From: an uncultured Alistipes sp.
Lineage (GTDB): Bacteria > Bacteroidota > Bacteroidia > Bacteroidales > Rikenellaceae
Direction: 5' to 3'
DNA length: 46,304 bases
NCBI GenBank assembly: GCA_944321965.1
Contig: CALUNH010000018.1
Location: 1 to 46,304, forward strand
Shown here: in pieces, positions 14,312 through 36,237 of the stretch
Layout of the letters: every line of letters begins with the position of its first letter
Position numbering within the stretch: position 1 is the first letter of the stretch
The notes under the pieces: generated by a model
What the model was told of the DNA's origin: nothing
Database searches by the model: none
The model's input: the letters and a program-made list of their open reading frames with translations, nothing else
Translations under genes and position numbers: made by a program

Positions 14312-15181
14312 CTATATGCCGCCTTCGTTTTCGAACCCCGAGACCGTGGCCCGGCCCTGGACGACCCGCGAGTAGGGCGGCAGGTCGGTCGTCTGCCAGA
14401 CGTTGCCGCCGATTACCGAGTCGTGGCCGATGCGCACGCGCCCCAGGATCGACGAGTTGGAGTAGACCACCACGCGGTCTTCGAGAATCGGGTGGCGGGG
14501 CTCCCGGAGGATGTTCCCCGCGGCGTCGAACTTGAAACTCTTGGCCCCGAGCGTCACGCCCTGGTAGAGCCGCACGTGGTCGCCGATGACGCAGGTCTCG
14601 CCGATGACGACGCCCGTGCCGTGGTCGATGCTGAAATACTCCCCGATTTCGGCTCCGGGGTGGATGTCGATTCCCGTGGCCGAGTGGGCCATTTCGGTGA
14701 TCAGGCGCGGCAGGATCGGTACGCCGAGCCGATGCAGCGCATGGGCCAGCCGGTAGTGGGTCATGGCCGCCAGCGCCGGGTAGCACAGAATCACCTCCTC
14801 GAAACTTGCCGCTGCCGGGTCGCCGTCGAAAACGGCCTTGACGTCGGTGCCGAGCCTGCGGCGCAGTTCGGGTAGCTCCTCCAGCAGCAGCCGGGCGGTC
14901 TTGGTTCCGAACCGTTCGGGGTCGAGGGCTCCGTTGCGGTGGAAGGTTTCGTAGGCCCGGGCGCTTTGGCAGGCCACGATTTCGGCGAATTTGCGCAGCA
15001 GGATCTCGACGGGCTGCGGACTGAAGTACCCCGCAAAGACCACCGAGCGGAAGTGTTCGATGGCCTGTTTGAGTTCCGAGGGGTCGATGCCCGCCCGGAC
15101 GGCGGCCGGAATATGGGGGTCGGGGGCGGTCAGCCGGTCGGCGAGCTGCCGCAGCCGGGCGGTTTGTGAACGTGGTTCCAT
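14312..15181 (-). CDS. cysE: serine O-acetyltransferase (EpsC/CysE type)
   Basis: A 289-residue cytosolic enzyme that acetylates L-serine with acetyl-CoA to O-acetylserine, the carbon skeleton for cysteine. It has a helical N-terminal domain (about 1-165) and a left-handed beta-helix C-terminal domain with the HSATGIDIHPGA, SIDHGTGVVIGE (catalytic His-Gly pair) and QGVTLGAKSF motifs. The last residues (GFENEGGI) end in isoleucine, as in SATs whose tail can dock into the CysK active site. It starts 3 nt after the cysK stop, so the two pathway enzymes are made from one transcript under the cysteine-codon leader upstream of cysK. Confidence 0.95.
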   Translation of the reverse strand: MEPRSQTARLRQLADRLTAPDPHIPAAVRAGIDPSELKQAIEHFRSVVFAGYFSPQPVEILLRKFAEIVACQSARAYETFHRNGALDPERFGTKTARLLLEELPELRRRLGTDVKAVFDGDPAAASFEEVILCYPALAAMTHYRLAHALHRLGVPILPRLITEMAHSATGIDIHPGAEIGEYFSIDHGTGVVIGETCVIGDHVRLYQGVTLGAKSFKFDAAGNILREPRHPILEDRVVVYSNSSILGRVRIGHDSVIGGNVWQTTDLPPYSRVVQGRATVSGFENEGGI

Positions 15182-15184
15182 GGT

Positions 15185-16147
15185 TTATCGGAGGTGAATG
15201 TCGGTTTTGTATGCGTCGAAGTCGTAGAGCTGGGTGGAGAGGTAACGTTCGCCGGTGTCGGGCAGCAGCGTGACGATCGTCCTGTCGCGGTACTCTTCCC
15301 GGCGGGCCAGTTGCAGGGCGGCCCAGGCCGCGGCTCCCGCGGAGATGCCGGAGAGCAGCCCTTCGCGGGCGGCCAGCAGGCGTGACGTCCCGATGGCCTC
15401 TTCGTCGCTGACGGTTACGATCCGGTCGACGACCTGCGGGTCGTAGTTCCCGGGGACGAAGCCCGCACCGATTCCCTGAATCTTGTGGGCCCCCGGCACA
15501 CCGCCCGACAACACGGGCGAGGAGGCCGGTTCGACGGCCACGATCTCCACCGCGGGGTTCAGCTCCTTGAGACGGCGTCCCGTGCCGCACAGCGTTCCGC
15601 CCGTTCCGACCCCCGCCACGAAGAGGTCGACGTGCCCGTCGGTATCGTTCCAGATCTCGTCGCCCGTCGTGCGGTAGTGCCGCTCGGGGTTGGCGGGGTT
15701 TTCGAACTGCTGGAGGATCACCGCACCGGGAATCTCCTCGCGGAGCCGCCCGGCACGGTCGATGGCCCCCTGCATCCCCGCAGCACCCGGCGTGAGGACC
15801 ACCCGGGCGCCGTATGCCGTGACGAGGCGCCGCCGTTCGAGACTCATCGTCTCGGGCATGGTGAGGATCAGCCGGTAGCCCTTCAGGGCGCAGACGAGTG
15901 CCAGACCGACTCCGGTATTTCCGCTCGTGGGTTCGATGATCGTGGCGCCGGGACGCAGCCTTCCGTCGGCTTCGGCCCGTTCGATCATGGCCAGGGCCAC
16001 GCGGTCCTTCACGCTCCCGGCGGGGTTGAACGATTCGACCTTCGCCACGACCCGTGCCACGGCCCCTGCGTCCCGGCTCAGGCGGGTCAGTTCGACCAGC
16101 GGGGTATGGCCGATGAGTTCGAGGATCGATTTTGCGATTTTTTCCAT
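15185..16147 (-). CDS. cysK: cysteine synthase A (O-acetylserine sulfhydrylase)
   Basis: A 320-residue PLP enzyme that makes L-cysteine from O-acetylserine and sulfide. The PLP-binding lysine is Lys47 in NPAGSVKDR. The substrate loop TSGNTG lies at 74-79, and the glycine-rich phosphate cup [12 protein letters not shown] is present. The length is standard. I chose the ATG at 16145-16147 (MEKIAKSI), where homology begins. The frame stays open for 87 more codons upstream, but that stretch is the untranslated leader and contains the promoter. It is the first gene of cysK-cysE, preceded by a Cys-rich leader peptide and an intrinsic terminator, which points to cysteine-responsive attenuation. Confidence 0.97.
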
Positions 16148-16168
16148 TTTTTTCGGGTTTGGATACGA

Positions 16169-16199
16169 AAAAGGGGCAACAGTGTGATCCTGCTGCCCC
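16169..16199 (-). terminator. leader terminator (attenuator) in front of cysK
   Basis: A 10-bp stem (16190-16199 with 16173-16182) with a 7-nt loop, followed on the minus strand by TTTTT. One pair is G.U in the minus-strand RNA and would be an A/C mismatch on the plus strand, so the structure belongs to the cysK transcript. It ends 21 nt before the cysK ATG. Confidence 0.8.
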
Positions 16200-16233
16200 A
16201 ATTCTATTGGTGAATAAATACGGAAATGCGATT

Positions 16234-16338
16234 TTACGCTTGCGGCGGTTCCGCGGTTCGCCCGGCAGCAGGCACGATGCGGCGACAGCGACAACACTTC
16301 GCTGCACAACAACACATCGTATGGTTCATTCCTGCCAT
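16234..16338 (-). CDS. cysteine-rich leader peptide of cysK-cysE
   Basis: A 34-codon ORF ending in TAA at 16234-16236. Residues 9-18 read [10 protein letters not shown]: six cysteines in ten positions, all TGT codons. A purine-rich AAGGAGG motif lies directly before the first ATG (16336-16338). In-frame ATGs at 16327-16329 and 16315-16317 are alternatives. It lies between the promoter at 16375 and the attenuator at 16173-16199. The peptide itself probably has no function; its translation would sense Cys-tRNA supply. A chance ORF with this Cys run exactly in front of the cysteine operon is unlikely. Confidence 0.75.
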
Positions 16339-16374
16339 TTCCTCCTTTTCGGGGCTTGGAACCCGCATCGGGGA

Positions 16375-16382
16375 CAAATATA
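16375..16382 (-). promoter_or_regulatory. -7 box for the cysK leader
   Basis: Minus-strand TATATTTG matches TAnnTTTG. Upstream is an A/T-rich stretch without a perfect TTTG. Transcription would start near 16370. Confidence 0.7.
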
Positions 16383-16496: not shown

Positions 16497-17069
16497 TCAG
16501 GAATCGGTGCGAGGGTGCTCGTGGTGCCGCTGCCACCACTCCGAGAGCCACATCACGCCCAGTCCGATCCCTACGCCGACGACCGATTCCAGAAACCGCA
16601 GCAGGCAGTTGATGGCGGGAGGCAGCCGGGGATTCTCCTCGGAAATGAGCAGGATGACGATCAGTGTGATGGTGGCGATATGTCCGTTGAGGTAGATGCC
16701 CAGCAACATGCTGATGATTTCGAGCAGGAAGACCGATCCGAGCATCCCGAGGACCGAAAAGTGCCAGACGCTCAGGTATCCGAAGGCGATCAGCGCTCCG
16801 ATTGCGGTTCCCAGAACGCGCATCCAGCCTACGGGCAGGGATTGTTTGAGCCCGGGTTTCTGCAGCACGACCACCACGGACGTGCAGGCCAGCATGGCTC
16901 CCATCCAGTGAGAAGCTTCGTGAAAGGGCCCCGTGACATAGGTTCCGAGCAGGTATGCCAGCAGGACGCCGATGCACGTTACGGCGGCGTTGAACGGCTG
17001 CAGCCGTGCTGCGAGCCGGTGCAGCAGGGCGGGTCGGGATTTCGGATCCCCGGTCTGGTCAGGTGTCAT
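16497..17069 (-). CDS. FUSC-like (aromatic acid exporter family) membrane protein
   Basis: A 190-residue protein with six predicted membrane helices (for example FNAAVTCIGVLLAYLLG, WMGAMLACTSVVVVLQ, FLESVVGVGIGLGVMWLS). The C-terminal segment with conserved RFLESVVGVGIGLG resembles the fusaric-acid-resistance/ArAE transporter family. Only the membrane half is present; the soluble domain of full-length exporters is absent, as in small stand-alone FUSC proteins. The start at MTPDQTGD was chosen because the upstream 70 codons look non-coding. It is divergent from the NhaC gene. Substrate unknown. Confidence 0.7.
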   Translation of the reverse strand: MTPDQTGDPKSRPALLHRLAARLQPFNAAVTCIGVLLAYLLGTYVTGPFHEASHWMGAMLACTSVVVVLQKPGLKQSLPVGWMRVLGTAIGALIAFGYLSVWHFSVLGMLGSVFLLEIISMLLGIYLNGHIATITLIVILLISEENPRLPPAINCLLRFLESVVGVGIGLGVMWLSEWWQRHHEHPRTDS

Positions 17070-17232
17070 GCTCCCGCACTCCGCAAGAAACGGGCCGGGA
17101 TTTGCACGTGCCGCAGAGCGATACGCTCTCCGGTCTCGATGCCCGACCGTGAAGTTCGGCCTGAGATTCCTGGTTTCGGGGCATGATTGCGGCGAAATCC
17201 TCCCGCAAGGCCGTATGGAGTTGCCCGGCAAA

Positions 17233-17263
17233 TTGGCGAAGCGGAAAATTTGCCCTATTTTTG
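17233..17263 (+). promoter_or_regulatory. promoter of the NhaC-family antiporter
   Basis: -7 box TATTTTTG (17256-17263) with a TTG -33 core at 17233-17235, 20 nt apart. The ATG follows 17 nt after the box. Confidence 0.75.
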
Positions 17264-17280
17264 CAGCCTGTTCGTACACG

Positions 17281-19194: not shown

Positions 19195-22100
19195 TTGTAT
19201 ATCTTGACCGATCGCCGAAACCATAAATTCCGAAACAAAATAACCGGTATTGCAATAGGCTGGTTTCTCTTTTTATGTCAAGTTGCCTTGGCCGCCACGC
19301 CCGAGTACAAGTTTACGCATTATACCTCGACGAACAGCGGACTGCCCTACAACATGGTCAACAAGATCATTCAGGATGAAAAGGGCTTTATCTGGTTCGG
19401 AACCTCTTCCGGCTTGAGCCGGTTCGATGGAACACGATTCCGGAACTATACCAAAGAGGAACTCGGACTTCAATCGGTATACGTTACGGCCTTGTGCAAC
19501 GATGAGGACGGAAATCTTTGGGTCGGAACCGATCTGGGTGTTACGGTGTATAATGTCCACACGGACCGTTTTGAGCCTTTTACCCGAAAAAGCGATTCGG
19601 GAACCTTCATCCATAACAAGGCCAATGCAATCTGTAAGGGTCCCGACGGCGTAATATGGATTTCGGTCAACGGGCAAGGACTTTTTGCCTATGATCCAAC
19701 CTCGAAATCGCTTCGCAACTATTTTTTCGAGCATGGGAAACAGACGCTCCCGGTCAATATCCGGACGTTGCATGTCGATGCGGAAAACGGACTGTGGATC
19801 TCGCTTTTTTATCATTCGCTTTTATATATGGCGCCCGGGCAGGCGATACCCCAATCCCTAAGGGACGGGACGGTAATCAATCAATTCCGGCATGATGATG
19901 TAACGGCGGTCCAGACTGTTCCCGGGCAGCCTCGGAGTGTATATATTGCGAGTGTCATCCAGGGTTTGTGCCTTTTGGATCAGACAACAGGGACAATCCG
20001 CACACTCATTCCTCCTCCGCAATCCGATTTCTCGGCCGAGGATCTGTTCATCGATCGGCAGGGACAGGTCTGGATGCCGACCAATATCGGCGTATACGTT
20101 TATAATCCGAAGGACGAATCGGTTCATTGTTACTCGGCAGATGAACAGGACCGTTTTTCGCTGTCGGACAATCATGCGTTCGCAGTCTATATCGATGCAA
20201 ACGAGGGCCTGTGGATTGGAACCAATGTCGGCGGGGTGAATTATAGCAGTGCCATACAACGAAACTTCGAAAAACAATATTTGGTAAAGAACCAGTCTCT
20301 CGGGGACTGTCTGGTCCGGGGATTCGCCGATGACAAAAAAGGCCATATTTGGGTTGCCACTGAAAAGGAGGGCCTGCTGGTTTACGACAAAAAATCGAGG
20401 CAATTGACAAAAATCGAGGATGTCAACCTTCCCAAAACCCAATTTACGGTTTGTTACGATTCCGGAATCTTGTGGATAGGAACCATTCAAGGCCTTTACC
20501 GTTTCAATCCCCGTACCAGGGAGAGCAAAGCCTATGAAACCCTTGGATTTCCGTTTTCCATGCAGGACCGGAGGGTTTTTGCCGTATTTTGCACTTCGCG
20601 CCATGAGTTATTCGTAGGGACTACCGTAGGATTGTTCCGATATGATCGCGTTCAAGATGTGTTCGATCCGATCGAATGGTTTGAGGGCGTTTTTGTGACC
20701 GATATGGAGGAAGACGCAGAACAAACACTTTGGATCTCAACCTATGCCAAGGGATTGGTCCGTTATGACCCGCTTGACGACCGTATCATGGCGCATTATC
20801 TCAACGATCCCTCCAGCCCGGCTGAGGGAAGTATTTCCTCCAACAAACTCTTTTCGGTATCCGTCGGGTCGAACGACAGAATCTGGGCTACCAGTTTCAA
20901 CGATGGTTTCTGCAGTTTCGACAAAGCGACCGGACAATTCAAAAACTATAACACGGCGCATAACGATCTGCTTCCGACCGATATCTGTTTCATGATTCTG
21001 GAAGACGATCTGGGACTGCTTTGGATCTCCTCGGACAAGGGACTTTTGTCTCTTGATCCCGATACGGATGAAATCCGATTGTTTTCAGTTTATGACGGCC
21101 TCCTTGACAACGAATTCAAAAACTGCGGATGGAAAGACGACAACGGAGACCTCTATTTCGGATCGCGGAGCGGATTCATTCGTTTCAACCCGGAGCGCTT
21201 TAGCTCGAAAAACGGGAATTCACGCCTTGTGATTACGGGACTCAGGGTTGGAGACGATTTGGTAACTCCGTCCGAGTCCGGAAACGGTCCGCTTGCCTGC
21301 AATGTCGACGAAACGCATGAGATTCATCTCTCGCCCCGACAAAATTCGTTCGGATTCGGATTTGCCATTCTCAATTCGAATGCTTCCGGGTCGAATGCCA
21401 TTCAATGCAAACTCGAAGGCTTCGATTCCGTGTGGCGGCATACGACGATCGACAACACCGTATTTTATTACAATGTCCCGGCCGGAACCTATACCTTGAA
21501 AACAAAAGCGTTAAACGGAATCGGCGCCGAAGAGATCGTGCATTCCGATTTGACGATTACCGTGGCACAGCGTTTTTATAAAAGCACGGTTGCGATTCTT
21601 CTCTATGTGTTTGTCCTTGTTTCCATTATTGTCGGGATATTTGTCTTATACTATCGTCGGGCCATCGCCCGGGAAAAGCGGAAACATGAAATTTATAAAC
21701 AGCAGAAGGAAGAGGAACTTTTCCAACAGAAACTGTCGTTTTTTTCGAGTGTCGTTCATGAGATCAAGACGCCGCTCACCGTTATCCGGACTCCCTTGCA
21801 AAACATCATGGCCTCGGAACGGCTCGATCCGTCGCTTCTGGATGAACTGGCAGTCATCGGAAACGGTACGGAATATCTGGACCGGTTGGTCCGGGAACTG
21901 CTCGATTTTATCCGCATCGAGAAACACGGATACCAGCTCAATCGTCGGATGTTGGATCTGGTCGAAAGAATCGGCTTTTTGTGCTCGAATTTTGCCGAAA
22001 CGGTGAAGGCCCGGAATCTGAAACTCTCGTTCAACTCCAATCCGGAATCCATTTATATCGATGCCGACGAGAGTGCGATCGATAAAATCCTGAACAACCT

Positions 22101-23199
22101 GCTTCACAATGCCGTTAAATATGCGGAGACCTATATCCGGGTAACCGTTGTCCGGAAAACGGGAGCCGCTGTCGTTGAAATCAGCAATGACGGACCCGCG
22201 ATTCCATTCGAACGACGATCCGAAATTTTCAAGCCGTTCGTGCAGTACAGCACTGACCGGGAGACCGAGACCCGAAGTTTCGGTATCGGGCTCCCTCTGG
22301 CCCGAACGTTGGCTGAAATGCATGACGGGTCTTTGGAGCTTTCCGACGATACGGCGGCCACGACCTTCGTGCTGACCCTTCCGGTCCAGGAACTTCAGAC
22401 GGAGTCGGCAATCGGTAACGAGGAGACTCCGGCCAGCAGACCTTTGGGGGCATCGATTCTGCTTGTGGAAGACAATCGGGAGCTTTCGGCCTATCTGGCC
22501 CGCAGGCTCGGTGCTGATTTTCAGGTCCAGACCGCACACTCCGCAGAGAAGGCCTGCGCGTTGCTTCGAAAACACGAACCCGATATCATTGTTACCGATA
22601 TCGCGTTGCCCGGAATGAGCGGCATCGAGTTTTGTCGGACGATTTCCGCCGATTTCAATTGTTCGCATATTCCCGTAATTGTGGTTTCGGCCATATCGGC
22701 CACCGATACCAAAATCGCATGTATTGAGGCCGGAGCCAGCACCTATATTGAAAAACCGTTCAGTATCGAGTATCTTCAGGCCTGTATCAAGGGTATCCTC
22801 GATAAACGGGCCGGGCTGAAAAAGGCATACCAGAATCCGTCGGCCCGGGTCGATCCCAAACAGTTCAATCTCCAGGGTGCCGACGAGGAGTTCCTGCATC
22901 GTCTCGATGAAGTGATCATGCAAAATCTCAAAGATCCCGCGTTTTCCAGCAAACAGATTGAAGAGGCCCTTTTCCTGAGCCGCTCGACCCTGATCCGGAA
23001 AGTCCGGGCGCTGCTCGATACGACCCCCAACGATTATCTGCGTTTCAAACGGCTGTCAGTCGCTGCTCAGTTACTTGCCCGAAACAAATGTCGGGTCAGT
23101 GAAGTCTGCTTTGCGGTCGGATTCAACTCACCCTCCTATTTTGCCAAATGCTTCAAGGAGCAATTCGGCATTCTTCCGGCAGAATATCAGAAAAAATAG
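19195..23199 (+). CDS. hybrid two-component system sensor/regulator (HTCS) of the PUL
   Basis: A 1334-residue single-chain sensor and transcription factor. In order: a signal peptide (to about residue 33); a periplasmic two-bladed propeller of Reg_prop repeats (about 40-700; motifs such as IWFGTSSGLSRFDG, LWVGTDLGVTVYN); a Y_Y_Y domain (about 705-785); a membrane helix (about 795-820); HisKA with phospho-acceptor His855 in VVHEIKTPLT; HATPase with N-box near 967 and SFGIGLPLA; a receiver with Asp1135 in TDIALPG; and an AraC-type HTH (about 1225-1334). HTCSs bind glycan breakdown products in the periplasm and switch on the neighbouring PUL. The frame is closed by a TAA at 19189-19191, so the start must be non-ATG: TTG at 19195 or 19204. 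Confidence 0.95.
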   Translation: MYILTDRRNHKFRNKITGIAIGWFLFLCQVALAATPEYKFTHYTSTNSGLPYNMVNKIIQDEKGFIWFGTSSGLSRFDGTRFRNYTKEELGLQSVYVTALCNDEDGNLWVGTDLGVTVYNVHTDRFEPFTRKSDSGTFIHNKANAICKGPDGVIWISVNGQGLFAYDPTSKSLRNYFFEHGKQTLPVNIRTLHVDAENGLWISLFYHSLLYMAPGQAIPQSLRDGTVINQFRHDDVTAVQTVPGQPRSVYIASVIQGLCLLDQTTGTIRTLIPPPQSDFSAEDLFIDRQGQVWMPTNIGVYVYNPKDESVHCYSADEQDRFSLSDNHAFAVYIDANEGLWIGTNVGGVNYSSAIQRNFEKQYLVKNQSLGDCLVRGFADDKKGHIWVATEKEGLLVYDKKSRQLTKIEDVNLPKTQFTVCYDSGILWIGTIQGLYRFNPRTRESKAYETLGFPFSMQDRRVFAVFCTSRHELFVGTTVGLFRYDRVQDVFDPIEWFEGVFVTDMEEDAEQTLWISTYAKGLVRYDPLDDRIMAHYLNDPSSPAEGSISSNKLFSVSVGSNDRIWATSFNDGFCSFDKATGQFKNYNTAHNDLLPTDICFMILEDDLGLLWISSDKGLLSLDPDTDEIRLFSVYDGLLDNEFKNCGWKDDNGDLYFGSRSGFIRFNPERFSSKNGNSRLVITGLRVGDDLVTPSESGNGPLACNVDETHEIHLSPRQNSFGFGFAILNSNASGSNAIQCKLEGFDSVWRHTTIDNTVFYYNVPAGTYTLKTKALNGIGAEEIVHSDLTITVAQRFYKSTVAILLYVFVLVSIIVGIFVLYYRRAIAREKRKHEIYKQQKEEELFQQKLSFFSSVVHEIKTPLTVIRTPLQNIMASERLDPSLLDELAVIGNGTEYLDRLVRELLDFIRIEKHGYQLNRRMLDLVERIGFLCSNFAETVKARNLKLSFNSNPESIYIDADESAIDKILNNLLHNAVKYAETYIRVTVVRKTGAAVVEISNDGPAIPFERRSEIFKPFVQYSTDRETETRSFGIGLPLARTLAEMHDGSLELSDDTAATTFVLTLPVQELQTESAIGNEETPASRPLGASILLVEDNRELSAYLARRLGADFQVQTAHSAEKACALLRKHEPDIIVTDIALPGMSGIEFCRTISADFNCSHIPVIVVSAISATDTKIACIEAGASTYIEKPFSIEYLQACIKGILDKRAGLKKAYQNPSARVDPKQFNLQGADEEFLHRLDEVIMQNLKDPAFSSKQIEEALFLSRSTLIRKVRALLDTTPNDYLRFKRLSVAAQLLARNKCRVSEVCFAVGFNSPSYFAKCFKEQFGILPAEYQKK

Positions 23200-23279
23200 T
23201 TGCCCGGGCTTTCTGAAAGGCGCCGATGCAACAATTTTTCCAACCGATACGACGATTTTCCCAAACCGCCGGAAGACCG

Positions 23280-23310
23280 TTTCACATCACGTCGAGTCCT
23301 GCTATTTTTG
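23280..23310 (+). promoter_or_regulatory. promoter of susC and the PUL operon
   Basis: -7 box TATTTTTG (23303-23310) with TTTC at 23280-23283, 19 nt upstream. This gives a leader of roughly 70 nt to the SusC ATG. It is the likely target of the HTCS; no operator repeat was recognised. Confidence 0.75.
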
Positions 23311-23384
23311 TATCGGGCTCATGAACCACCCTGATTAGGATCGGTTGCCGGAAACCGATCAGTACGAACTTAAAACCAACCATT

Positions 23385-26300
23385 ATGAAACACGAACGAC
23401 TCCTCATTGCCACGGGGAAATTGATTTTCCTGTCTTCCGTTCTGTGTTTTGCATTGCTGTGCCTGTGGCCGGGTGCGGCTTTGTCACAGTCCAGGAATGC
23501 AGCTAACACGATTGGGAATTGCACGGTCCGTATATTGGATGCCGGAGGAAACCCCGTATCGGGAGCTGCCGTTGTTGTAAAAGGCAGCAATCGGGGCGAA
23601 ATTTCCGATACGAAGGGAATTTGCCGGTTTCACGCAATCCCGGCTCATGCCGTACTGACCGTTAGCTATCTCGGTATGACCGCCCGGGAAACCCCGCTGA
23701 ACGGCCGTACTGAAATTACCATCACCCTGACCGAAGAGAGCCTTCAGATGGACGAACTTGTAGTCGTCGGGTACGGTGTGCAACGCAAACGCGACCTGTC
23801 CGGGGCCATTGCCCAGGTGAAAGGCGACGTGATCAACGAATTTGCCAATCTTTCGATTGCGTCGGCCCTTCAGGGGCGCGTCTCGGGTGTACAGATCAAT
23901 CAGCTCAACGGACAGCCCGGAGCCGGTATTCAGGTCCGTATTCGCGGTGCGAATTCGATCAAGGGCGACAACGAGCCTCTTTGGATCATCAATGGATTCC
24001 CCGGGGATATCAACATGATCAATACCTCGGATATCGAATCGGTCGAGATTCTGAAAGATGCTTCTGCAACGGCCATTTACGGCTCCCGGGGAGCCAATGG
24101 CGTTGTCATCGTCACGACGAAAAGCGCCAAACAGGGGGAGGTGAAAGTCACCTACGACGGCAGTGTCGGGGCCCAAAGCCTTGCCAAACAGATGGAGATG
24201 CTCAGCGGCGACGAGTATATGATCTATCTGAATAAAAAAGCCGAAATCAACGGCCTGCCGGACGTCTTCACGGAAAAACAGATCCAGGAAAACACGTTCA
24301 ATACCAATTGGCAGGACGAGGTGTTCCGCGCGGCGGTCATCACCAACCATGCCGTGGATATCACCGGCGGCAATTCCAAGTTCCAGGGATCGCTCGGAGC
24401 CAGTTATTTCAAGCAAGACGGAATCGTCAAGAAGAGCGGTTATGAGCGCATCTCCCTGCGTACCGACCTCAACTACAATATTTCGAAGTATGTTTCCGCC
24501 TCCGCGAATATCATTTTCAGCCGTTCGAATCATGATCAGATGAATTCCCAGGGTGGCAGCCGCGGGTCGTCGGTGATCGGCGCCGCATTGGTTACCTCTC
24601 CGCTTGCCACGCCGCATTATGATGATGGCTCCTGGAACGATTTCCAGACTCAACCGGTTGCCGGGACCAATCCGCTGGCCTATCTTTACGAAATCAAGAA
24701 CAAATGGTATGCAAACCGGATATTGGCCAATGCGGCTCTGACGATCAAACCGGTCGACGGCTTGTCCATACAACTGGCCGCGAACATTGCCAATAATCAG
24801 AATCGGAAGGATTACACCAAATCGCTCGACTATCCGAATTCCGACGGTGCGGCCTCCATCACTTTGGGCGAGACCCTGGGGATTACCAGCAACAACATCA
24901 TTACATACGACAAGGGCTTCGGAAAGCACCATATCAACGTCATGGGCGGTATTACGTATGAAGAGAGTACGTCGAAAACCGTTGGGACCGGCACCGGCAC
25001 CGGATTTCTCAGTGATGTGGTGGAGTCCTACGACATGAATGCCGCCGAAGTAAAAGGCTTGCCGACTTCGGGGTATTCGAACTGGAAACTCCTTTCATTC
25101 CTCGGGCGTTTCAACTATAACTACGACAACCGGTACCTCCTGACCGTGAATTTCCGGGCCGACGGATCGTCGCGTTACAGCAAAGGCAACAAATGGGGGT
25201 ATTTCCCTTCGGCGGCCGTGGCGTGGCGTATCTCCCAGGAGCGTTTCATGAAGGATCTTGATTGGTTGTCGGATCTTAAGTTGCGAGTCGGATACGGCGT
25301 GACAGGCAGTACGGCCATTTCGCCCTATTCGACGCAGAATACGCTGGAATCCGTCAATGTCGTGTTTGATAAAACGACGGTTGTGGGGTATGCTCCGAGT
25401 GATACGTATCTTGGCGGACTGCGGTGGGAGACGACCGCGCAATTAAATGTCGGTATTGATCTGGCCCTTCTTAACAACCGGATTCGTCTGACGGCCGATT
25501 ATTACCATAAAAAGACGACGGACCTGCTTAATGATGTCGAGATGCCTCGGTCGAGCGGTTATACGACGGCATTGCGCAACATCGGATCGATCCGCAACTC
25601 CGGAGTCGAGGTTCAGCTCGATTCCCGTATCATCAACAAGGCTGTGAAATGGGATTTCGGGATCAACTTCTCGCTGAACCGTTCGAAAATCCTGTCGCTT
25701 TCGGAGGGCAAGGATATTTTCGGCGGCACGGTCAGCAATACGCTCCTCAGCGATCAATTGAATTTGATGCGGGAAGGAGAGCCGATGTATCTCTTCTATG
25801 GCTACGTGGAGGATGGTTATGACGATAAGGGTCAGATCGTTTATAAGGATCTCGATGGCGTAGAGGGCATTTCGGCCGCCGATAAGACCATTATCGGGGA
25901 TCCCAATCCCGATTTTCTGCTCAATTTCAACACCTCTGTCAGTTACAAGGGGTTCACGTTGAGCGCATTTTTCCAGGGTTCGTTCGGGAACGACATCTAT
26001 TCGCTCAGTATGGTCAGCGTAGCTTACGACTATGGATATAATGCCAATGCGCTGCGCGAGGTGCTTTATGACCATTGGACCCCGGAGAATCCGAATGCGA
26101 AATATCCGAATTTATCGCAGAATATTTCGTTGAAAATGTCCGACCGTTTTGTCTACGACGGCAGCTACCTGCGCCTCAAGAATCTGGAGCTGGGTTATGA
26201 CATACCTTGCGGAAAAGGCAAGTTTATTAGCCAGGCGCGCGTTTTTGTCAGTGCTCAGAATCTGTTCACGATCACGTCCTATCCGTTCTGGGATCCGGAT

Positions 26301-26402
26301 GTAAATGCACAGGGCGGAGGCAACTCCCTCATTCAAGGCGTAGACTCCAACTGTTATCCCAGTGCCCGGACTTTCTCACTGGGTTGCAGGCTCGTATTCT
26401 AA
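23385..26402 (+). CDS. SusC-family TonB-dependent outer-membrane glycan transporter
   Basis: A 1005-residue outer-membrane receptor that imports oligosaccharides using TonB energy. It has a signal peptide (to about residue 35), a carboxypeptidase-D-like beta-sandwich (about 45-120, CTVRILDAGGNPVSGAAV), a TonB box region (SLQMDELVVVGYG, about 121-133), a plug domain (about 135-250, with VRIRGANSIKGDNEPLWIING) and a 22-strand barrel. It ends in FSLGCRLVF with the terminal aromatic residue used in barrel assembly. It is the first gene of the PUL operon, directly followed by susD. Confidence 0.97.
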   Translation: MKHERLLIATGKLIFLSSVLCFALLCLWPGAALSQSRNAANTIGNCTVRILDAGGNPVSGAAVVVKGSNRGEISDTKGICRFHAIPAHAVLTVSYLGMTARETPLNGRTEITITLTEESLQMDELVVVGYGVQRKRDLSGAIAQVKGDVINEFANLSIASALQGRVSGVQINQLNGQPGAGIQVRIRGANSIKGDNEPLWIINGFPGDINMINTSDIESVEILKDASATAIYGSRGANGVVIVTTKSAKQGEVKVTYDGSVGAQSLAKQMEMLSGDEYMIYLNKKAEINGLPDVFTEKQIQENTFNTNWQDEVFRAAVITNHAVDITGGNSKFQGSLGASYFKQDGIVKKSGYERISLRTDLNYNISKYVSASANIIFSRSNHDQMNSQGGSRGSSVIGAALVTSPLATPHYDDGSWNDFQTQPVAGTNPLAYLYEIKNKWYANRILANAALTIKPVDGLSIQLAANIANNQNRKDYTKSLDYPNSDGAASITLGETLGITSNNIITYDKGFGKHHINVMGGITYEESTSKTVGTGTGTGFLSDVVESYDMNAAEVKGLPTSGYSNWKLLSFLGRFNYNYDNRYLLTVNFRADGSSRYSKGNKWGYFPSAAVAWRISQERFMKDLDWLSDLKLRVGYGVTGSTAISPYSTQNTLESVNVVFDKTTVVGYAPSDTYLGGLRWETTAQLNVGIDLALLNNRIRLTADYYHKKTTDLLNDVEMPRSSGYTTALRNIGSIRNSGVEVQLDSRIINKAVKWDFGINFSLNRSKILSLSEGKDIFGGTVSNTLLSDQLNLMREGEPMYLFYGYVEDGYDDKGQIVYKDLDGVEGISAADKTIIGDPNPDFLLNFNTSVSYKGFTLSAFFQGSFGNDIYSLSMVSVAYDYGYNANALREVLYDHWTPENPNAKYPNLSQNISLKMSDRFVYDGSYLRLKNLELGYDIPCGKGKFISQARVFVSAQNLFTITSYPFWDPDVNAQGGGNSLIQGVDSNCYPSARTFSLGCRLVF

Positions 26403-26421
26403 TGATCAAACAGTTAAAACT

Positions 26422-27897
26422 ATGAAACGGACTCTTTTATTAATACTCGCATTGTTCGGAGCCTCAACGCTCACCACATCCTGTGAAGAGTGGTCCTTTC
26501 TTGATGAACATCCCAAAAAAGTGGATGCCACGACCTTCATGTCCAATGCCGAAGAGGTACAAAGTGTCATTAATTCGATCTATTATCAGTTGCGCCGTAA
26601 TCCCGGTTTCGGCCGTTATCTTTCGGTCTTGAGCGAAAGTCTTGCCGATTATTGTTATGGGCGGGGAAATTATGCAACCTCTTATGCCAGTGGCCTGACG
26701 AGCGGCGGAATCGGTTTATCTAAAGATACGTGGGCCGTATTGTACCGAGCCATTCGCTTTTCGAATGAAATCCTCTCTCAGATCGACGGTGCCACTCTTT
26801 CCCAGCTCCAATATGACCAATTGACGGGAGAGACCCGGTATCTGCGGGCCTTCAGTTATTCATACCTGGTCAAATATTTCGGAGCCGTGCCTTTTTTCGA
26901 CGAGACCAATATGTCCAATTTCAACAAACCGAGAACTCCGGAGCGTGAGATCTGGGAATTTATCGCCCGAGAGGCTGCCGATGCTGCCGATTTGCTGCCG
27001 GAAACGGTGGTTATGGCGGGACATCCGACTCGCTATGCGGCTTTGATGTTGCGGACAGAGGCCTGTCTGTATCTGGAGGATTGGAGTGGCGCAGCCTCGG
27101 CGGCTGAAGAGATCGTGACCTCCGGGCGCTATGCGCTTGTGGAGGTCTCGGCGGCCGATGATTTCGATGACCTCTACGGCTACAAGGCCAATGCCACGCA
27201 GGAGGAGATATTTTATTTTAAATACAATCGGGATGAAGGAGCCACTTTCCCCTGGATGTATTTGTGCAAACCCAATCCGGTTTTTGCCACAGGTGCTTTG
27301 GGCATCTATACCGACTATGCCAACAATCGGTTTATTGCCGATTGGGATCCTGCGGATCTTCGCTATCAGTACAGTCTTTATAAACAAACGGAGAATGGAA
27401 CGCTCAACAGTTTGACCAAAACCGGAATGATCTGTCTGAAGTATCGGGATCAGGAGACCGACGGGTCCACTATGGCCAACGACTTTCCCGTCTATCGCTA
27501 TGCCGATGCGTTGCTCTATTATGCCGAGGCAATCTGCCGCAGGGATGGGAAACCCAATAGTACAGCCCTGGAAATGATCAACCGGATACATCGTCGAGCC
27601 TATGGCCTGAACCCGATGCAGGCACATGCTTCGGATTACAAACTGGCGGATTATTCGACGCAAGAGGCCTTTATGGAGTTGCTGCTTAAAGAGCGCGGTT
27701 ATGAGACCATTTTTGAAGGGAAACGTTACTGCGATCTGAAGCGATGCGGAAAATTGGCCGAATATGCCGTAAAGGCCGGTCGCATCGCATCGGTGTCGGA
27801 AGTTGGAGATGCCGCTTATTGGTGGCCGATTCCGACCGATGAATTCAATTACAACACGGCACTTGATCCGGCTAAGGATCAAAATCCCGGATATTAA
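26422..27897 (+). CDS. SusD/RagB-family glycan-binding lipoprotein
   Basis: A 491-residue outer-membrane lipoprotein (lipobox ending at Cys21, LTTSC) that lids the SusC barrel and captures glycan. The helical TPR-like SusD core is evident: GETRYLRAFSYSYLVKYFGAVPFF, a middle variable region, and the C-terminal motif LLLKERGYETIFEGKRYCDLKR. It starts 19 nt after susC. Sequence does not reveal the glycan. Confidence 0.97.
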   Translation: MKRTLLLILALFGASTLTTSCEEWSFLDEHPKKVDATTFMSNAEEVQSVINSIYYQLRRNPGFGRYLSVLSESLADYCYGRGNYATSYASGLTSGGIGLSKDTWAVLYRAIRFSNEILSQIDGATLSQLQYDQLTGETRYLRAFSYSYLVKYFGAVPFFDETNMSNFNKPRTPEREIWEFIAREAADAADLLPETVVMAGHPTRYAALMLRTEACLYLEDWSGAASAAEEIVTSGRYALVEVSAADDFDDLYGYKANATQEEIFYFKYNRDEGATFPWMYLCKPNPVFATGALGIYTDYANNRFIADWDPADLRYQYSLYKQTENGTLNSLTKTGMICLKYRDQETDGSTMANDFPVYRYADALLYYAEAICRRDGKPNSTALEMINRIHRRAYGLNPMQAHASDYKLADYSTQEAFMELLLKERGYETIFEGKRYCDLKRCGKLAEYAVKAGRIASVSEVGDAAYWWPIPTDEFNYNTALDPAKDQNPGY

Positions 27898-27906
27898 ATA
27901 TTTCGT

Positions 27907-29013
27907 ATGATCATGAAACAAAAATTGATTTTTTCGATAGCCTCGTTATTGGCTGCCGTATCCTGTGCCGCTCCGTCGGCAGAACTCGCCGGACGATGGT
28001 CGGAAGAGCGGGCCAATGCCTGGTATGCTTCGCATGAATGGCCGGTAGGGTGCAACTATGTTGCTGCGTCGGCAATCAATCAATTCGAAATGTGGCAGCG
28101 GGAGTCTTTCGACCCTCAAACCATGGAACATGAAATGAGCCTTGCCGAAGGTTTGGGATTCAATACGGTTCGCATTTTCCTGCATGACATGGTTTGGGAA
28201 GCTGATCCGGACGGTTTCAAACAGCGTATCGACCAGTTTCTTGGGATCTGCGATCGCCACGGGATCAAGGTTATTGTGACCTTTTTTACCAATGGCGGGC
28301 GTTTTGAAAATCCCAAACTTGGCAAACAGCCGGAATCCATATCCGGAGTGCATAATTCACAGTGGATTCAAAGTCCCGGAGCGCAGTCCGTAAACGATCC
28401 TGCGACCTGGCCGCGGCTGAAAAAGTATGTGACGGATATCCTGACCGCTTTCCGGGATGATGACCGTATTTTGTTCTGGTGCCTTTACAACGAACCGGAA
28501 AATTTCAAGGAAGGGGCTCGGAGTCTGCCTTTGTTGCGTGAAGTTTTCCGCTGGGGGCGTGAAGTCAACCCTTCGCAACCGCTTTCGTCGCCCGTTTGGC
28601 TCTGCCCCGGATATCATGGGGGGCGAAGCAATTACCCGATTATCAGTTTCCTGGGCGAGAATTGCGATATCATGACGTTCCATTGCTATTATGAACCGGA
28701 AGAGATGGAGACATTCATTTCGTACATGAAACAGTTCGACCGGCCGATTGTTTGTCAGGAATATATGGGACGGCCGCGTTCCACCTTCGAAGAGATCATG
28801 CCTATTCTCAAACGCGAGCATGTCGGAGCTATCAGTTGGGGCCTCACAGCCGGGAAATGCAATTTCCATCTGCAATGGTCCAGCAAGGCCGGGGATCCGG
28901 AACCCGAGATTTGGTTCCATGACATTTATCGTTCCGATGGGACTCCTTACGATCCACACGAAATTGATTTCATCCGATCCATGACACGTGATAAAAATAT
29001 GAATATCCAATAA
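27907..29013 (+). CDS. clan-A (GH5-like, cellulase-family) glycoside hydrolase lipoprotein
   Basis: A 368-residue exported protein with a short signal and a lipobox-like AVSC. The TIM-barrel body shows the clan-A pattern: acid/base Glu196 in CLYNEPENF after strand 4 and nucleophile Glu284 in VCQEYMGRP after strand 7. GLGFNTVRIFLHD marks strand 2. Similar Bacteroidetes proteins are usually labelled cellulase-family or 1,4-beta-xylanase. The true family number and linkage cannot be assigned here, so it should be read as an endo- or exo-beta-glycosidase of the PUL. The start could also be the ATG two codons later (27913). It follows susD by 9 nt. Confidence 0.8.
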   Translation: MIMKQKLIFSIASLLAAVSCAAPSAELAGRWSEERANAWYASHEWPVGCNYVAASAINQFEMWQRESFDPQTMEHEMSLAEGLGFNTVRIFLHDMVWEADPDGFKQRIDQFLGICDRHGIKVIVTFFTNGGRFENPKLGKQPESISGVHNSQWIQSPGAQSVNDPATWPRLKKYVTDILTAFRDDDRILFWCLYNEPENFKEGARSLPLLREVFRWGREVNPSQPLSSPVWLCPGYHGGRSNYPIISFLGENCDIMTFHCYYEPEEMETFISYMKQFDRPIVCQEYMGRPRSTFEEIMPILKREHVGAISWGLTAGKCNFHLQWSSKAGDPEPEIWFHDIYRSDGTPYDPHEIDFIRSMTRDKNMNIQ

Positions 29014-29023
29014 TTCTACAGTC

Positions 29024-30925
29024 ATGAAATACAGTCGATTGATAAGTAAAACGATCTTTTGGGCATGGGTGCTGTCATTGTCCGCATGTGCCAAGCCGTC
29101 CGCCGATGAACATCCGAATCCTAAACCGGGGACAAATACCGATCCGGAGCCTGTGGATACGGAAATCACCTCGATTCAGGAGCTCAATGCGGATGAAGGA
29201 TTCCTCAATTCCCATGCGAACGAGTGGCAAAACAGCCTGCTCGAAATGAATTACCGGTCGTTTATCACCCTGGAGAGTCCGCTCCTGTCGGCCGTAAATG
29301 CCCGTTATCCCCGTATCAAGAAGTTGAAGGATGGATCCTATCTGTTGATCTACCAACAAGGGATGACGGCTCACGACGTGTACTATGCCCGCAGCAACAA
29401 TCTGACCTCCTGGCAGAATGTCGAGGAGCAGCTTTTTGCAAAAACCGACATGAACCAGTATGAAAGCACGGTGTCGGACCGCGTACTCTTCTCGTCGGCC
29501 GATGCCATTGTGCTTGATAACGGGGATATTCTGGCTTTTGCCTCCTTCCGGCTCAACAAGGGGTACCTGCTCAACCCGCTTAACAACGGGATCATGATGC
29601 GCCGCTCGACCGACAACGGCCGGACCTGGTCTCCGACGGAGGTCATTTACCGGGGTACGACCTGGGAACCCTCCGCCCTTCAATTGTCGAGCAAGGAGGT
29701 ACATCTCTATTTTACGGATGCCGATCCGCTTATCGGTAATTCGGGAACCTCATTGCTCCGTTCTACGGATCGGGGTGCAACCTGGACCGCCGTGGGTAAG
29801 ATCATTCGGCAAAAGGCCGGTGTGGCCACCGACGGCTCCGGACAAACGATATTTACCGACCAGATGCCTGTGGCCATTCAATTGAACGGTTCGGAACGGA
29901 TTGCCGTCGCATTCGAGTCCCGATTCGGGCGTACCGGAACCTCGGAAGATCGATACCATCTGGGCCTGGCATACACGTCGGACAACTGGGCGGCAGGACC
30001 TCCTGCCGGGGATGAGGACGGTCCCGCCGAACGTCAGAGCAACCTGTTCCTGGATGAAGCCGCACCCTATCTGCGGCAGTTCCGTTCGGGAGAAACCCTC
30101 CTCTCCTGCAACATCAACTATATGTTCAACATGCGTCTCGGCGATTCCAAAGCCTGGGAATTCGGCCAGCCGATGCAGGCTTTTCCGGGCCGGGGCTCGT
30201 GGGGATCCGTCGAATTGATCAATGACCATACGCTCGTCGGTGTCTTTCCTGAGGCTTTCACTCAGACGATTGATGGAACGCAGACGGACTGCGCCCGGAT
30301 CCAACTGGCCAAATTCGTATTGAATCACCGCATCAATGCTTCGGAGTTCACCCCCGAAATCATCGGCAGCAGCAAGGGATGGACCCATGTACAGGATGCG
30401 CTCTTCATCGGCAGTGTCTCGGATGCCCAGGCCGTATTCCGTTTTGCGTATGACGCCGAGAATCTGTATTGCCTTGCCGAGCGGCTGGACAAGAACCTCT
30501 CCGGGACCGACGGCCTGGAACTCATGATTCAGAGCGGAAATGCCACGGGAGATCCTTTGATCGTCAAGATCACTCCTGATGCTGCAAGCGGTACGCTGGT
30601 ATGCGGGAATCAGGACCTTCAGATGGGTGCAACCGTGCTCGGCACCTTCGATGAAACGGAAAACGACCGTGGATATGTCCTGGTTGTCGCCATCCCCCGC
30701 AGCAAACTCAATACGACGATGGATCGCATCCTTTTCAACGCCGTATTGCACGATGCCGCCGGTGACGATACGTTCTCGGGACTGACGTCTTCCAACTATG
30801 AAAAATGGCTGCCGGTAGAGCTCAAAGAGCCTTCCGAACCCCAACCTGAGCCCGAACCGGGCGATAACGACAACGGTCAGGGCCCCCAGTGGAACAATGG
30901 GGAAGAGATTAATCCGTGGAAATAA
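29024..30925 (+). CDS. sialidase-fold (BNR repeat) lipoprotein with C-terminal CBM9-like module
   Basis: A 633-residue lipoprotein (LSLSAC lipobox), followed by a Pro-rich linker. Residues about 70-430 form a sialidase-type six-bladed propeller: an early arginine in ARYPRIKKLKDGS, Asp-box repeats STDNGRTW and STDRGATW, and conserved WEPSALQL and IFTDQMP segments. Residues about 440-605 look like a family-9 carbohydrate-binding module (FRFAYDAENLYCLAERLD). A Pro/Glu tail ends the protein. The classical GH33 FRIP motif is not evident, so substrates other than sialic acid are possible (GH93-like exo-arabinanases share the fold). It is a paralogue of the gene at 36238. It lies in the PUL operon, 10 nt after the clan-A hydrolase. 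Confidence 0.75.
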   Translation: MKYSRLISKTIFWAWVLSLSACAKPSADEHPNPKPGTNTDPEPVDTEITSIQELNADEGFLNSHANEWQNSLLEMNYRSFITLESPLLSAVNARYPRIKKLKDGSYLLIYQQGMTAHDVYYARSNNLTSWQNVEEQLFAKTDMNQYESTVSDRVLFSSADAIVLDNGDILAFASFRLNKGYLLNPLNNGIMMRRSTDNGRTWSPTEVIYRGTTWEPSALQLSSKEVHLYFTDADPLIGNSGTSLLRSTDRGATWTAVGKIIRQKAGVATDGSGQTIFTDQMPVAIQLNGSERIAVAFESRFGRTGTSEDRYHLGLAYTSDNWAAGPPAGDEDGPAERQSNLFLDEAAPYLRQFRSGETLLSCNINYMFNMRLGDSKAWEFGQPMQAFPGRGSWGSVELINDHTLVGVFPEAFTQTIDGTQTDCARIQLAKFVLNHRINASEFTPEIIGSSKGWTHVQDALFIGSVSDAQAVFRFAYDAENLYCLAERLDKNLSGTDGLELMIQSGNATGDPLIVKITPDAASGTLVCGNQDLQMGATVLGTFDETENDRGYVLVVAIPRSKLNTTMDRILFNAVLHDAAGDDTFSGLTSSNYEKWLPVELKEPSEPQPEPEPGDNDNGQGPQWNNGEEINPWK

Positions 30926-30946
30926 ACGACTCAAAAATTCAAGCTC

Positions 30947-32827
30947 ATGAAAACTCGTCATATTCTGACTATTTTCGCGCTGTCCTTCGTTTTTGGCTCA
31001 TGCTCAAGTTACGAAGAGACCGATGCGATTCCCGAATCTCTACAAGCGGAGTCTGTCATCGGCATATTGAATCCGCGGTCGCGGACCTCGTTGGATCTCT
31101 CGCGGAATGTCGTATGGAATTCCGGGGACCGGATCCGTATTTTCGGCGCGACCGTTCCTGCAGGGGCCGTTTACACGACGGCATCGGACAATACCCGTAC
31201 CGGGATTTTTTTACCGGAGGACGAACAGAAGGTTGTAAATGATGCGCTTCGTTATGCCGTTTATCCGGCTGATGCGGCGTCCGGGACCCTTGAAGCGAGT
31301 TCGCTCACGGTCGATTTCTCGGCCTTGGCGGAGCAATCCTATTATTCGGCGCTTGGCGGAGGAACCGGCATTTCGGCATTGCCGATGGTTGCGAGATCGG
31401 AAGACAATGCCTTCTCGTTCCAGAATCTTTGTGGCGGCGTACAATTGCAGATTAACGATTATCAATCGCTTGGGATCAAGATCAAAACCGTGGTCATGAC
31501 GGCCTCCGGAGGCGAACAGATCACGGGGCAGGCTTCGGTAGACCTCGAATCCGGGACGGTTACATTGGGATCGGACGGCGATCGTGCCTCCGTAACGGTG
31601 AATTGCGGTGACGGTGCCAATATCTCTTCCGGCGGGGACTTGACGAAAAATACGGGATTCGTCATTTTCCTTCCGGCTGCGACCTATGACGGTTTCGAGT
31701 TCGTCATTACCGATACCGAGGGCCGCTGTTATGAGATTGCAACCCGGCAGGCCGTAACCGTAACCGCCGGAGTCGTATCACCTTTGAAGCCACTGCTCTT
31801 GACGCTCTATTACGGTTCGGCGAACTGTTACCGGACGACAGGAGCGGGAAATGTCGAAATAGACGTGACCCCCTATTACACGTTCGATGAAAAACTCACG
31901 CATGGGAATCTGAAATGCCTCAACAGTTCCGGAGTTGCAGTCGGACTCCCGACCCAGTCTCGGATTATCTGGCAGCAGCCTGCGAGCGATGAATCCGGAG
32001 ACGTGATCTCGACACCTTCGCTTGACAATACGACACTCCGGGTTCCGACAACCGGGAAAAAGGGCAATGCCGTAGTTGCCGTATGCGATTCCGAGGGGAC
32101 GATTCTCTGGTCGTATCACGTTTGGGTCAGTGATGCCGAAGACATCGCCTGGAAAAACGAGGCGCTCGGTAATTTCCACATGCTTGACCGGAATCTGGGC
32201 GCTACATCGACTACACAGAAGGATCCGAATGCCTACGGACTCTTTTATCAGTGGGGGCGTAAAGACCCGTTGGCTCGGAATCTGACGGCCCAGCGTCCCT
32301 CCGGGAATCCCTATGAAAGCGAGCCGAGCGCCCTGGAACAGGTTCTCGAAGCGACCGCCGAAACCGGGACCATCGCTTATGCTACGCAACACCCGTATAC
32401 CCGCCTGCTTGCTGTCAACGACTGGCAGATTGCGGGCAGCATCAATGCCTTGTGGGGAAATGCGGACGGAACGATCGAGGAGGGAACGGGTGTCAAGACC
32501 GTTTTCGACCCGTGCCCTGCCGGATACCGCGTTCCGGAAGAGTTGGCCTATGCCGGTCTGACCGACAAGGACAAGGGAAACTGCAACAATCAATACGGAC
32601 ACATGTTCGATGTCGATGGGAACGGGACGACCTCGTATTTCCCGACGGCAGGCTATCTGGAGAAGAATAAGGATGTCATCAAATACCTGGAATATCGCGG
32701 TTATTTGTGGACCAATGTTCCCGGAGAAACGGGTTCCTACTATTTCTATTACAACAACGCCAATTTGAACCGGACCGGGCTGGATCGAGCTGCCGGGTGC
32801 CCGATCCGCTGTATCAAGATCGAATAG
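30947..32827 (+). CDS. fimbrillin-family lipoprotein with C-terminal FISUMP domain
   Basis: A 626-residue lipoprotein (lipobox FGSC, about Cys19). Residues about 35-285 resemble a fimbrillin-like beta-sandwich (NPRSRTSLDL, VWNSGDRIRIFGA, LRYAVYPADAA). Residues about 405-626 form a FISUMP domain: FHMLDRNLGATSTTQKDPNAYGLFYQWGRKDP, then FDPCPAGYRVP, and a closing GCPIRCIK. Such proteins are usually surface-exposed. Placement between two sialidase-fold enzymes in a PUL suggests a surface glycan-binding protein rather than a pilus subunit; that is inference. No fimbrial assembly genes are nearby. Confidence 0.72.
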   Translation: MKTRHILTIFALSFVFGSCSSYEETDAIPESLQAESVIGILNPRSRTSLDLSRNVVWNSGDRIRIFGATVPAGAVYTTASDNTRTGIFLPEDEQKVVNDALRYAVYPADAASGTLEASSLTVDFSALAEQSYYSALGGGTGISALPMVARSEDNAFSFQNLCGGVQLQINDYQSLGIKIKTVVMTASGGEQITGQASVDLESGTVTLGSDGDRASVTVNCGDGANISSGGDLTKNTGFVIFLPAATYDGFEFVITDTEGRCYEIATRQAVTVTAGVVSPLKPLLLTLYYGSANCYRTTGAGNVEIDVTPYYTFDEKLTHGNLKCLNSSGVAVGLPTQSRIIWQQPASDESGDVISTPSLDNTTLRVPTTGKKGNAVVAVCDSEGTILWSYHVWVSDAEDIAWKNEALGNFHMLDRNLGATSTTQKDPNAYGLFYQWGRKDPLARNLTAQRPSGNPYESEPSALEQVLEATAETGTIAYATQHPYTRLLAVNDWQIAGSINALWGNADGTIEEGTGVKTVFDPCPAGYRVPEELAYAGLTDKDKGNCNNQYGHMFDVDGNGTTSYFPTAGYLEKNKDVIKYLEYRGYLWTNVPGETGSYYFYYNNANLNRTGLDRAAGCPIRCIKIE

Positions 32828-32848
32828 GGTTAAAATACGAACGAAAAA

Positions 32849-36181: not shown

Positions 36182-36189
36182 ATTTGTCG

Positions 36190-36220
36190 AATTCCGGAGA
36201 GGAATCTCCTCTCCGGAATT
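36190..36220. other. perfect inverted repeat between two PUL genes
   Basis: A 14-bp perfect stem (36190-36203 with 36207-36220) with a 3-nt loop lies 9 nt after the DUF5107 stop. CCC rather than T follows it, so it is more like an mRNA-processing or stability hairpin, or a weak terminator, than a full stop. Confidence 0.7.
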
Positions 36221-36237
36221 CCCTTGCTCATTTGCTT

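Follow-up and report, generated by a model that had tools for sequence, protein, structure and literature searches.

The window, that is, the whole stretch of 46,304 nucleotides analysed here, from an uncultured Alistipes sp., carries on its minus strand cysK, which encodes cysteine synthase A, followed by a cysE-type serine O-acetyltransferase gene as the second gene of the operon. The CysE product matches TIGR01172 with an E value of 5.7e-47 and 159.7 bits, under the curated cut-off of 210.65. Among the named genomes scanned, the nearest CysK lies on an uncultured Alistipes contig (83%). Upstream of the operon, on the same strand, lies a FUSC-like gene (16497-17279), and the interval between this gene and cysK is occupied by a leader with the following features, listed together with the two genes that it precedes.

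16375 to 16382, minus strand: promoter motif TATATTTG, fitting TAnnTTTG
16234 to 16338, minus strand: leader peptide ORF, 34 codons plus stop, with homologues in 13 further genomes
16306 to 16314, minus strand: first Cys run, codons 9-11, TGT TGT TGT, the predicted main control codons
16285 to 16296, minus strand: second Cys cluster, codons 15, 16 and 18, conserved less well
16274 to 16320, minus strand: hairpin around the Cys codons, ACGATG/CATCGT with an inner GCAGCGA/TCGYTGY, conserved
16264 to 16272, minus strand: region 2, the putative antiterminator strand CCTGCTGCC, codons Pro-Ala-Ala
16189 to 16197, minus strand: region 3, GGCAGCAGG, exact complement of region 2, overlapping the 5' arm of the terminator
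16173 to 16199, minus strand: hairpin of the intrinsic terminator, with arms at 16199-16190 and 16182-16173; region 4 is its 3' arm
16168 to 16172, minus strand: U5 tract of the terminator (T5 in DNA)
15185 to 16147, minus strand: cysK, cysteine synthase A (TIGR01139, 435.9 bits, above the cut-off of 350.95)
14312 to 15181, minus strand: cysE-type serine O-acetyltransferase (TIGR01172)

TATATTTG is assigned as a promoter by its match to TAnnTTTG, which we take to be the Bacteroidota -7 promoter motif, and it ends 36 nt before the leader ATG, which would give a 5' UTR of some 30 nt. The leader ORF contains six Cys codons within ten (codons 9, 10, 11, 15, 16 and 18), all of them TGT. Region 2 begins 12 nt past the last of these codons and lies inside the ORF, its end being 27 nt ahead of the stop codon. 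The terminator consists of GGGGCAGCAG (16199-16190), a 7-nt loop and CTGTTGCCCC (16182-16173), with a folding energy of -19.2 kcal/mol, and ends 20 nt before the cysK ATG (16147). An earlier note on this DNA had described the promoter, the 34-codon ORF with six TGT codons in ten and the 9-nt segment that exactly complements the terminator arm 12 nt past the last Cys codon, and a sequence check finds each of them where it was placed; the G.U pair in the terminator does fit the cysK-sense RNA only, as the note had remarked. The 10-bp hairpin with its U5 tract is also there, at a spacing of 20 nt from cysK and not the 21 nt first given. Likewise, the AAGGAGG reported upstream of the ORF is present (16347-16341, minus strand), but its reading as a Shine-Dalgarno sequence carries little weight, being just 2 nt from the leader ATG and not conserved among relatives.

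Within the window, only one ATG-started ORF of 8-80 amino acids has at least six Cys in ten residues, and this is the leader ORF. No such ORF arose in 100 dinucleotide shuffles of the window, in which the mean number was 0.05 for at least five Cys and 0.54 for at least four, and when the sequence from the Cys run to the terminator was shuffled by mononucleotides, a complement of 9 nt was reached in 5 of 1000 cases. These counts bear on the reading in which the Cys ORF is there by chance and the hairpin is the terminator of the FUSC-like gene, which does lie upstream on the same strand. We regard this as extremely improbable, given that the shuffles never produce such an ORF, that the hairpin stands about 300 nt beyond that gene with a conserved promoter motif in between, and that the conservation of a Cys-run ORF in all 14 orthologous loci contradicts it.

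We consider it very probable that cysK-cysE is controlled by a transcription attenuator in which a translating ribosome mediates the response to charged tRNA-Cys. In this reading, transcription would begin at the TATATTTG promoter, and a ribosome would translate the leader. When Cys-tRNA(Cys) is short, this ribosome would stall on the TGT run and leave region 2 free to pair with region 3 on its emergence, before region 4 is made, such that the terminator would not form in time and cysK-cysE would be transcribed. When cysteine is plentiful, the ribosome would move on, region 2 would be either shadowed by the ribosome or trapped by RNA further upstream, and transcription would be brought to an end by the 3:4 hairpin, the stronger one, together with the U tract. 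This replete-state step is the weakest link of the mechanism. With 27 nt between the end of region 2 and the stop codon, region 2 is not covered by a ribosome that has reached the stop, a difficulty that had been recognized from the start and that is real.

The anatomy is conserved in relatives. A peptide profile run on 180 genomes of the window's genus recovered 12 leaders at E values of at most 6.1e-6, with the next match at 0.0015; 21 genomes pass a threshold of 0.01, and the matches beyond the 12 all have E values of at least 0.0015. A DNA search of 268 family genomes returned the same 12 leaders at E values of at most 1.0e-6, the next match being at 5.4e-4. All 12 core leaders precede cysK (79-100% identity), and cysE comes next after cysK in the 12 core genomes and also in G135. 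Meanwhile, a CysK match was found in 37 genus genomes and reaches at least 74% identity in 14 of these, namely the 12 core genomes, G135 and G221. Every one of these 14 cysK orthologues, drawn from the 180 genus genomes, is preceded by a Cys-run leader with a terminator-like hairpin, which supports the cysteine-attenuator reading put forward in the earlier note. The leaders of G135 and G221 are shorter or shifted (MLTISNHTICCATVFCCRRVMSVAK and MSNAGNHIALFAAAICCCRSVSCLLPEKATD) and keep the TAnnTTTG motif and the terminator. In G221 (L156:51-308), the order differs: a partial cysE match is divergent and located upstream of the leader and cysK rather than downstream, so that the leader has stayed with cysK.

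Although the peptide drifts, each of the 14 leaders has kept a run of CC or CCC. In the core leaders, codons 9 and 10 are TGT in 12 of 12 and codon 11 in 11 of 12, and three core genomes (G042, G204 and G203) have a reduced second Cys cluster. In 13 of the 14 leaders a TAnnTTTG motif is found no more than 60 nt ahead of the ORF, the exception being G203, where it is missing. A covariance model, R1, was built from 11 leaders, with G135, G221 and G206, a near copy of G205, excluded. Searched against the 268 family genomes, R1 recovered all 14 leaders, including the held-out pair at 1.9e-10 and 2.0e-7; the next match there reached only 3.1e-4, and none other attained 1e-4. In 393 genomes sampled from the order, the best match besides the window's own was at 1.5e-4; the filters in both the family and the order search were stricter ones, at the cost of weak matches. 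Among 38 cysK loci from other Rikenellaceae genera (35 of the 48 matching genomes), none had an upstream Cys run, and one of them, G313, has two ORFs with three scattered Cys in 12 residues. The element therefore appears specific to a single cysK lineage inside the genus, and because all 14 leaders come from one genus, their relatedness inflates the apparent conservation.

Nothing leader-like was found among the weak R1 hits (19 listed, of which 15 had their locus scanned for Cys-rich ORFs). L240, L241 and L250 show four Cys in 12 residues, L250 being located at the start of another gene, and L237 has a short ORF that ends in HTICCKE ahead of another ORF. Ten weak hits of the peptide profile, examined by motif scan and five of them also by Cys content, gave no comparable leader.

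Both the terminator and the complement between regions 2 and 3 are retained through sequence change. The terminator hairpin is present in 14 of 14 leaders at -13.6 to -23.9 kcal/mol (13 located by script; that of G204 placed by eye and folded), with a U tract that is short or interrupted in G042 and G204. Across 11 leaders, 95.5% of its cells are paired, as compared with 39-76% when the partner strand is slid; both-side changes are seen at three pairs, a count equalled by 4 of 500 shuffles. With the two diverged leaders added, making 13, the three both-side pairs were matched by 56 of 500 shuffles, while the five cells with both-side changes were matched by only 2 of 500. A one-column slide of the partner also yields three both-side pairs, and another slid version equals the true covariation score. 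The covariation of the terminator is modest.

Homologues lacking the Cys run or the complement were named in the earlier note as telling against its own reading, and this is not what is seen: the run is found in all 14, and a 2:3 complement of 8-10 pairs in 13, G135 being the weak one. Exact helices of 8-9 bp occur in the 11 core leaders scored, each matched by 2-24 of 1000 shuffles, and 94.9% of the cells of the helix are paired. Covariation above shuffles was found neither in 11 leaders, which show no both-side change, nor in 13, which show one (332 of 500 shuffles). What speaks for the 2:3 antiterminator helix is its conservation and not proof by covariation, and the informative leaders are the diverged ones, G129, G221 and G135. 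G129 has 8 exact bp in a shifted register. G221 forms ten contiguous pairs (one U.G) with letters altered on both strands, at -23.8 kcal/mol, its longest exact match being 6 bp (129 of 1000 shuffles), and G135 forms 5 exact bp (347 of 1000 shuffles) at -10.5 kcal/mol. In G032, region 2 has 8 exact pairs, and the best duplex with the arm uses a different segment. As for the hairpin around the Cys codons (16274-16320), 96.5% of its cells are paired in 11 leaders, with no compensatory change and no excess over shuffles in these same leaders; it is a candidate pause or "1:2" hairpin.

The choice of codons in the leader differs from that of its surroundings. We chose 17 flanking genes from the ORFs by GC3 and omitted eight genes at 19-38 kb as a different region; in the 17 genes TGT accounts for 20 of 121 Cys codons (TGC for 101), as against six of six in the leader, and in the omitted eight genes TGT and TGC number 41 and 49 of 90. 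In this the leader resembles known attenuators, where rare control codons also occur. Region 2 reads CCT GCT GCC (Pro-Ala-Ala), a spelling with a chance of 0.002 at the codon usage of the 17 genes and of about 0.005 with all 25 genes pooled. Its third bases are invariant in 12 of 12 core leaders, and in the cysK comparison, which covers 11 genomes, no variation is seen at 24 of the 128 comparable four-fold sites; the three region 2 sites were picked after inspection, which makes this codon evidence supportive rather than a formal test. The design of the leader suggests that it may carry two codes, one of rare TGT control codons and one of Pro-Ala-Ala codons that spell the antiterminator.

Codon-level conservation also bears on whether the ORF encodes a functional Cys-rich peptide, for example one for metal or redox binding, with the hairpin just ending its transcript. 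Across the core leaders a 20-residue part shows amino-acid conservation, as such a function would have it, but several synonymous sites are fixed as well, the C-terminal third is variable, the second Cys cluster is reduced in the three core genomes named above, and the peptides of G135 and G221 keep little beyond their Cys runs. Besides, the ORF precedes cysK in all 14 genomes, and no NCBIfam model matches the peptide of the window at E values up to 1. We therefore hold this reading to be very unlikely.

The attenuator reading was further examined by folding the 14 leaders with masked ribosome footprints in three states, with the ribosome stalled, with the ribosome at the stop codon and with no ribosome; for G203, where no promoter motif is present, the start was a fallback position 32 nt before the ORF. 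Once region 4 has been transcribed, the terminator prevails in all 14 leaders whatever the ribosome state, which means that the switch has to be a kinetic one. At the stage when region 4 is still missing, a stalled ribosome allows 5.8-8.9 expected 2:3 pairs in 13 of 14 leaders and 3.1 in G135. With the ribosome at the stop, 2:3 pairing is lost in five leaders (G023, G032, G129, G135 and G221) and retained in nine, the window included (7.2 expected pairs stalled, 7.9 at stop); a parallel run with slightly different masks and an approximate G204 arm gave the same five. The folding with and without the ribosome that the earlier note had proposed does separate the stalled state from the stop state in 5 of 14 leaders, but not in the window's own. 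With no ribosome, 2:3 still forms in 11 of 14 (5.2-8.9 expected pairs) and is lower only in G129, G135 and G221; stalling is thus not required for 2:3 pairing in the model. In the ribosome-free full transcript, region 2 has at least 3.7 expected pairs with upstream RNA in 13 of 14 leaders, a pairing that is available once region 4 takes region 3, and the model makes a 1:2 step in the replete state possible.

That thermodynamics alone give no difference between a stalled and a finished ribosome in 9 of 14 leaders is what one would expect if the same sensor had another output, one that a stalled ribosome would bring about independently of the 2:3 helix, with a secondary role for the complement. 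Such an output may be the hairpin around the Cys codons, through RNA polymerase pausing and ribosome shadowing, or Rho. The nearly complete pairing of that hairpin points the same way, as does G135, which with little complement still keeps its Cys codons and its terminator. We nevertheless think this alternative unlikely, because region 2 is conserved at free codon positions and in rare codons, because the complement outlasts sequence change in G129 and G221, and because the Cys-codon hairpin is without compensatory change; the terminator-like hairpin in 14 of 14 leaders means that Rho is not needed. We retain transcription attenuation through competing 2:3 and 3:4 pairing as the preferred reading.

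Other cysK genes of the genus have a leader in one case of 20 (these 20 were taken from 23 genomes, with G045, G050 and G212 left out). This is G062 (L157:341-561, on G062:C1), in which an unrelated Cys leader precedes a different cysK, 47% identical. Its ORF ends in MRSAYAGWCIAACCCCC-stop (CCCCC-stop), a promoter-like motif TATTTTTG is present, and a terminator, GGAGC...GGCTCC followed by T6, begins about 12 nt past the stop codon. A DNA search with the G062 leader across the 180 genus genomes found no relative better than E 4.2e-4, and the leader is possibly an independent origin of cysteine attenuation. We put forward tentatively, as a claim that may well prove wrong, that cysteine attenuation with intrinsic terminators arose at cysK on no fewer than two occasions in a single gut genus, once as the window type and once as the G062 type, and that in the window type the antiterminator strand lies inside the ORF such that the replete state would be set kinetically by the passage of the ribosome and not by a ribosome parked at the stop.

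Elsewhere in the genus, L162, L163 and L165 have ORFs with three Cys in 12 residues upstream of other cysK genes. Among 105 further cysK loci, some of which had little upstream DNA, 12 have an ORF bearing a Cys pair or four Cys in 12 residues, and four of these 12 ORFs were inspected. One locus, L097 (G089, from another family of the order), has a TTG-started ORF with CLFGICCMLCC from about 205 to 105 nt before cysK, with the motif TAATTTTG upstream and no terminator that is clear by eye, and is a possible lead for a further Cys leader.

Attenuators of trp and his operons combine control codons, segments that pair 2:3 or 3:4 and an intrinsic terminator. The window element shares all three and has the anatomy of a classical attenuator; it differs in the position of region 2, inside the ORF and 27 nt before the stop, so that its replete state is not simple stop-codon masking. 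Bacteroid-trp RNA, from the same phylum, has a Trp-codon leader. In Rfam, the window has no match at the gathering threshold, T-box and Bacteroid-trp included. At E values up to 5, the segment 16100-16420 matches only twister-P1 (16336-16385, minus strand) at 16.9 bits against a gathering threshold of 67.2, and this sub-threshold match, with an E value of 0.57, is most likely due to chance. Mycobacterial polycysteine short ORFs, as Canestrari reportedly described in 2020, are leaderless and act on translation. Bacteroid-trp RNA (RF01692) is given as a candidate regulatory RNA in the available part of PMC2864571, a standing that the window element shares with it.

The earlier note knew of no described cysteine version of such a leader, which does not hold, as the accessible portions of two papers report them for Actinobacteria (PMC1262725) and for cysS of Rhodobacterales (PMC8632094). 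In the former, from 2005, Cys-run leader peptides are described for Mycobacterium cys operons and for cbs of P. acnes and B. longum, and in the excerpt available these actinobacterial leaders have no conserved terminator hairpins. Passages of PMC13236596 and PMC9094748 cite a cysteine-responsive system of mycobacteria as a case of translation attenuation. As far as these excerpts go, the window type shares with the mycobacterial set a Cys-codon run in a short ORF before cysteine genes and, by prediction, a cysteine response by stalling, and differs from it by its terminator hairpin (14 of 14) and its predicted 5' UTR of about 30 nt. The Rhodobacterales element, uORFC-8-2, lies before cysS and, in the sections of PMC8632094 at hand, has an AUG-started uORF with conserved Cys codons, a stem holding these codons, a U run and an intrinsic terminator stem, for which its authors propose ribosome-mediated attenuation. 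Its Cys-codon uORF, the stem containing the Cys codons, the U run and the intrinsic terminator recur in the window leader. In the same sections, uORFC-8-2 has tandem Cys codons usually at positions 14-15, with UGC dominant, before a cysteinyl-tRNA synthetase gene in alphaproteobacteria, whereas the window leader has a TGT run before cysK-cysE in Bacteroidota; the two were compared by their features. By the features tested, the window element belongs neither to uORFC-8-2 nor to the mycobacterial set.

Within Bacteroidota, an excerpt of PMC9723704 mentions leader-peptide attenuation ahead of operons for amino-acid biosynthesis in Flavobacterium, and one of PMC7366714 mentions sORFs reminiscent of leader peptides in Bacteroides. 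A cysteine leader was not found in the available text of a survey of premature terminators (PMC2965389), and among the matches listed the open-licence literature holds no cysteine attenuator in Bacteroidota. In this sense, the kind is already known, while the family, with its cysK-cysE operon and its taxon, is new as far as the open-licence literature shows. The element would add a cysteine-specific terminator/antiterminator attenuator to a phylum for which, besides Bacteroid-trp, the parts available of PMC9723704 and PMC7366714 offer general mentions of leader peptides, and it is a small, testable element that would link cysteine supply to cysteine synthesis in gut commensals.

Apart from the leader, the eight genes omitted from the codon comparison span 19195-37866 and have GC3 values of 0.54-0.66 (TGT in 41 of 90 Cys codons). 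The 17 flanking genes, picked partly on GC3, have values of 0.69-0.91 (TGT in 20 of 121). The first gene of the 19195-37866 block encodes a hybrid two-component regulator, and the block may be an acquired utilisation locus.
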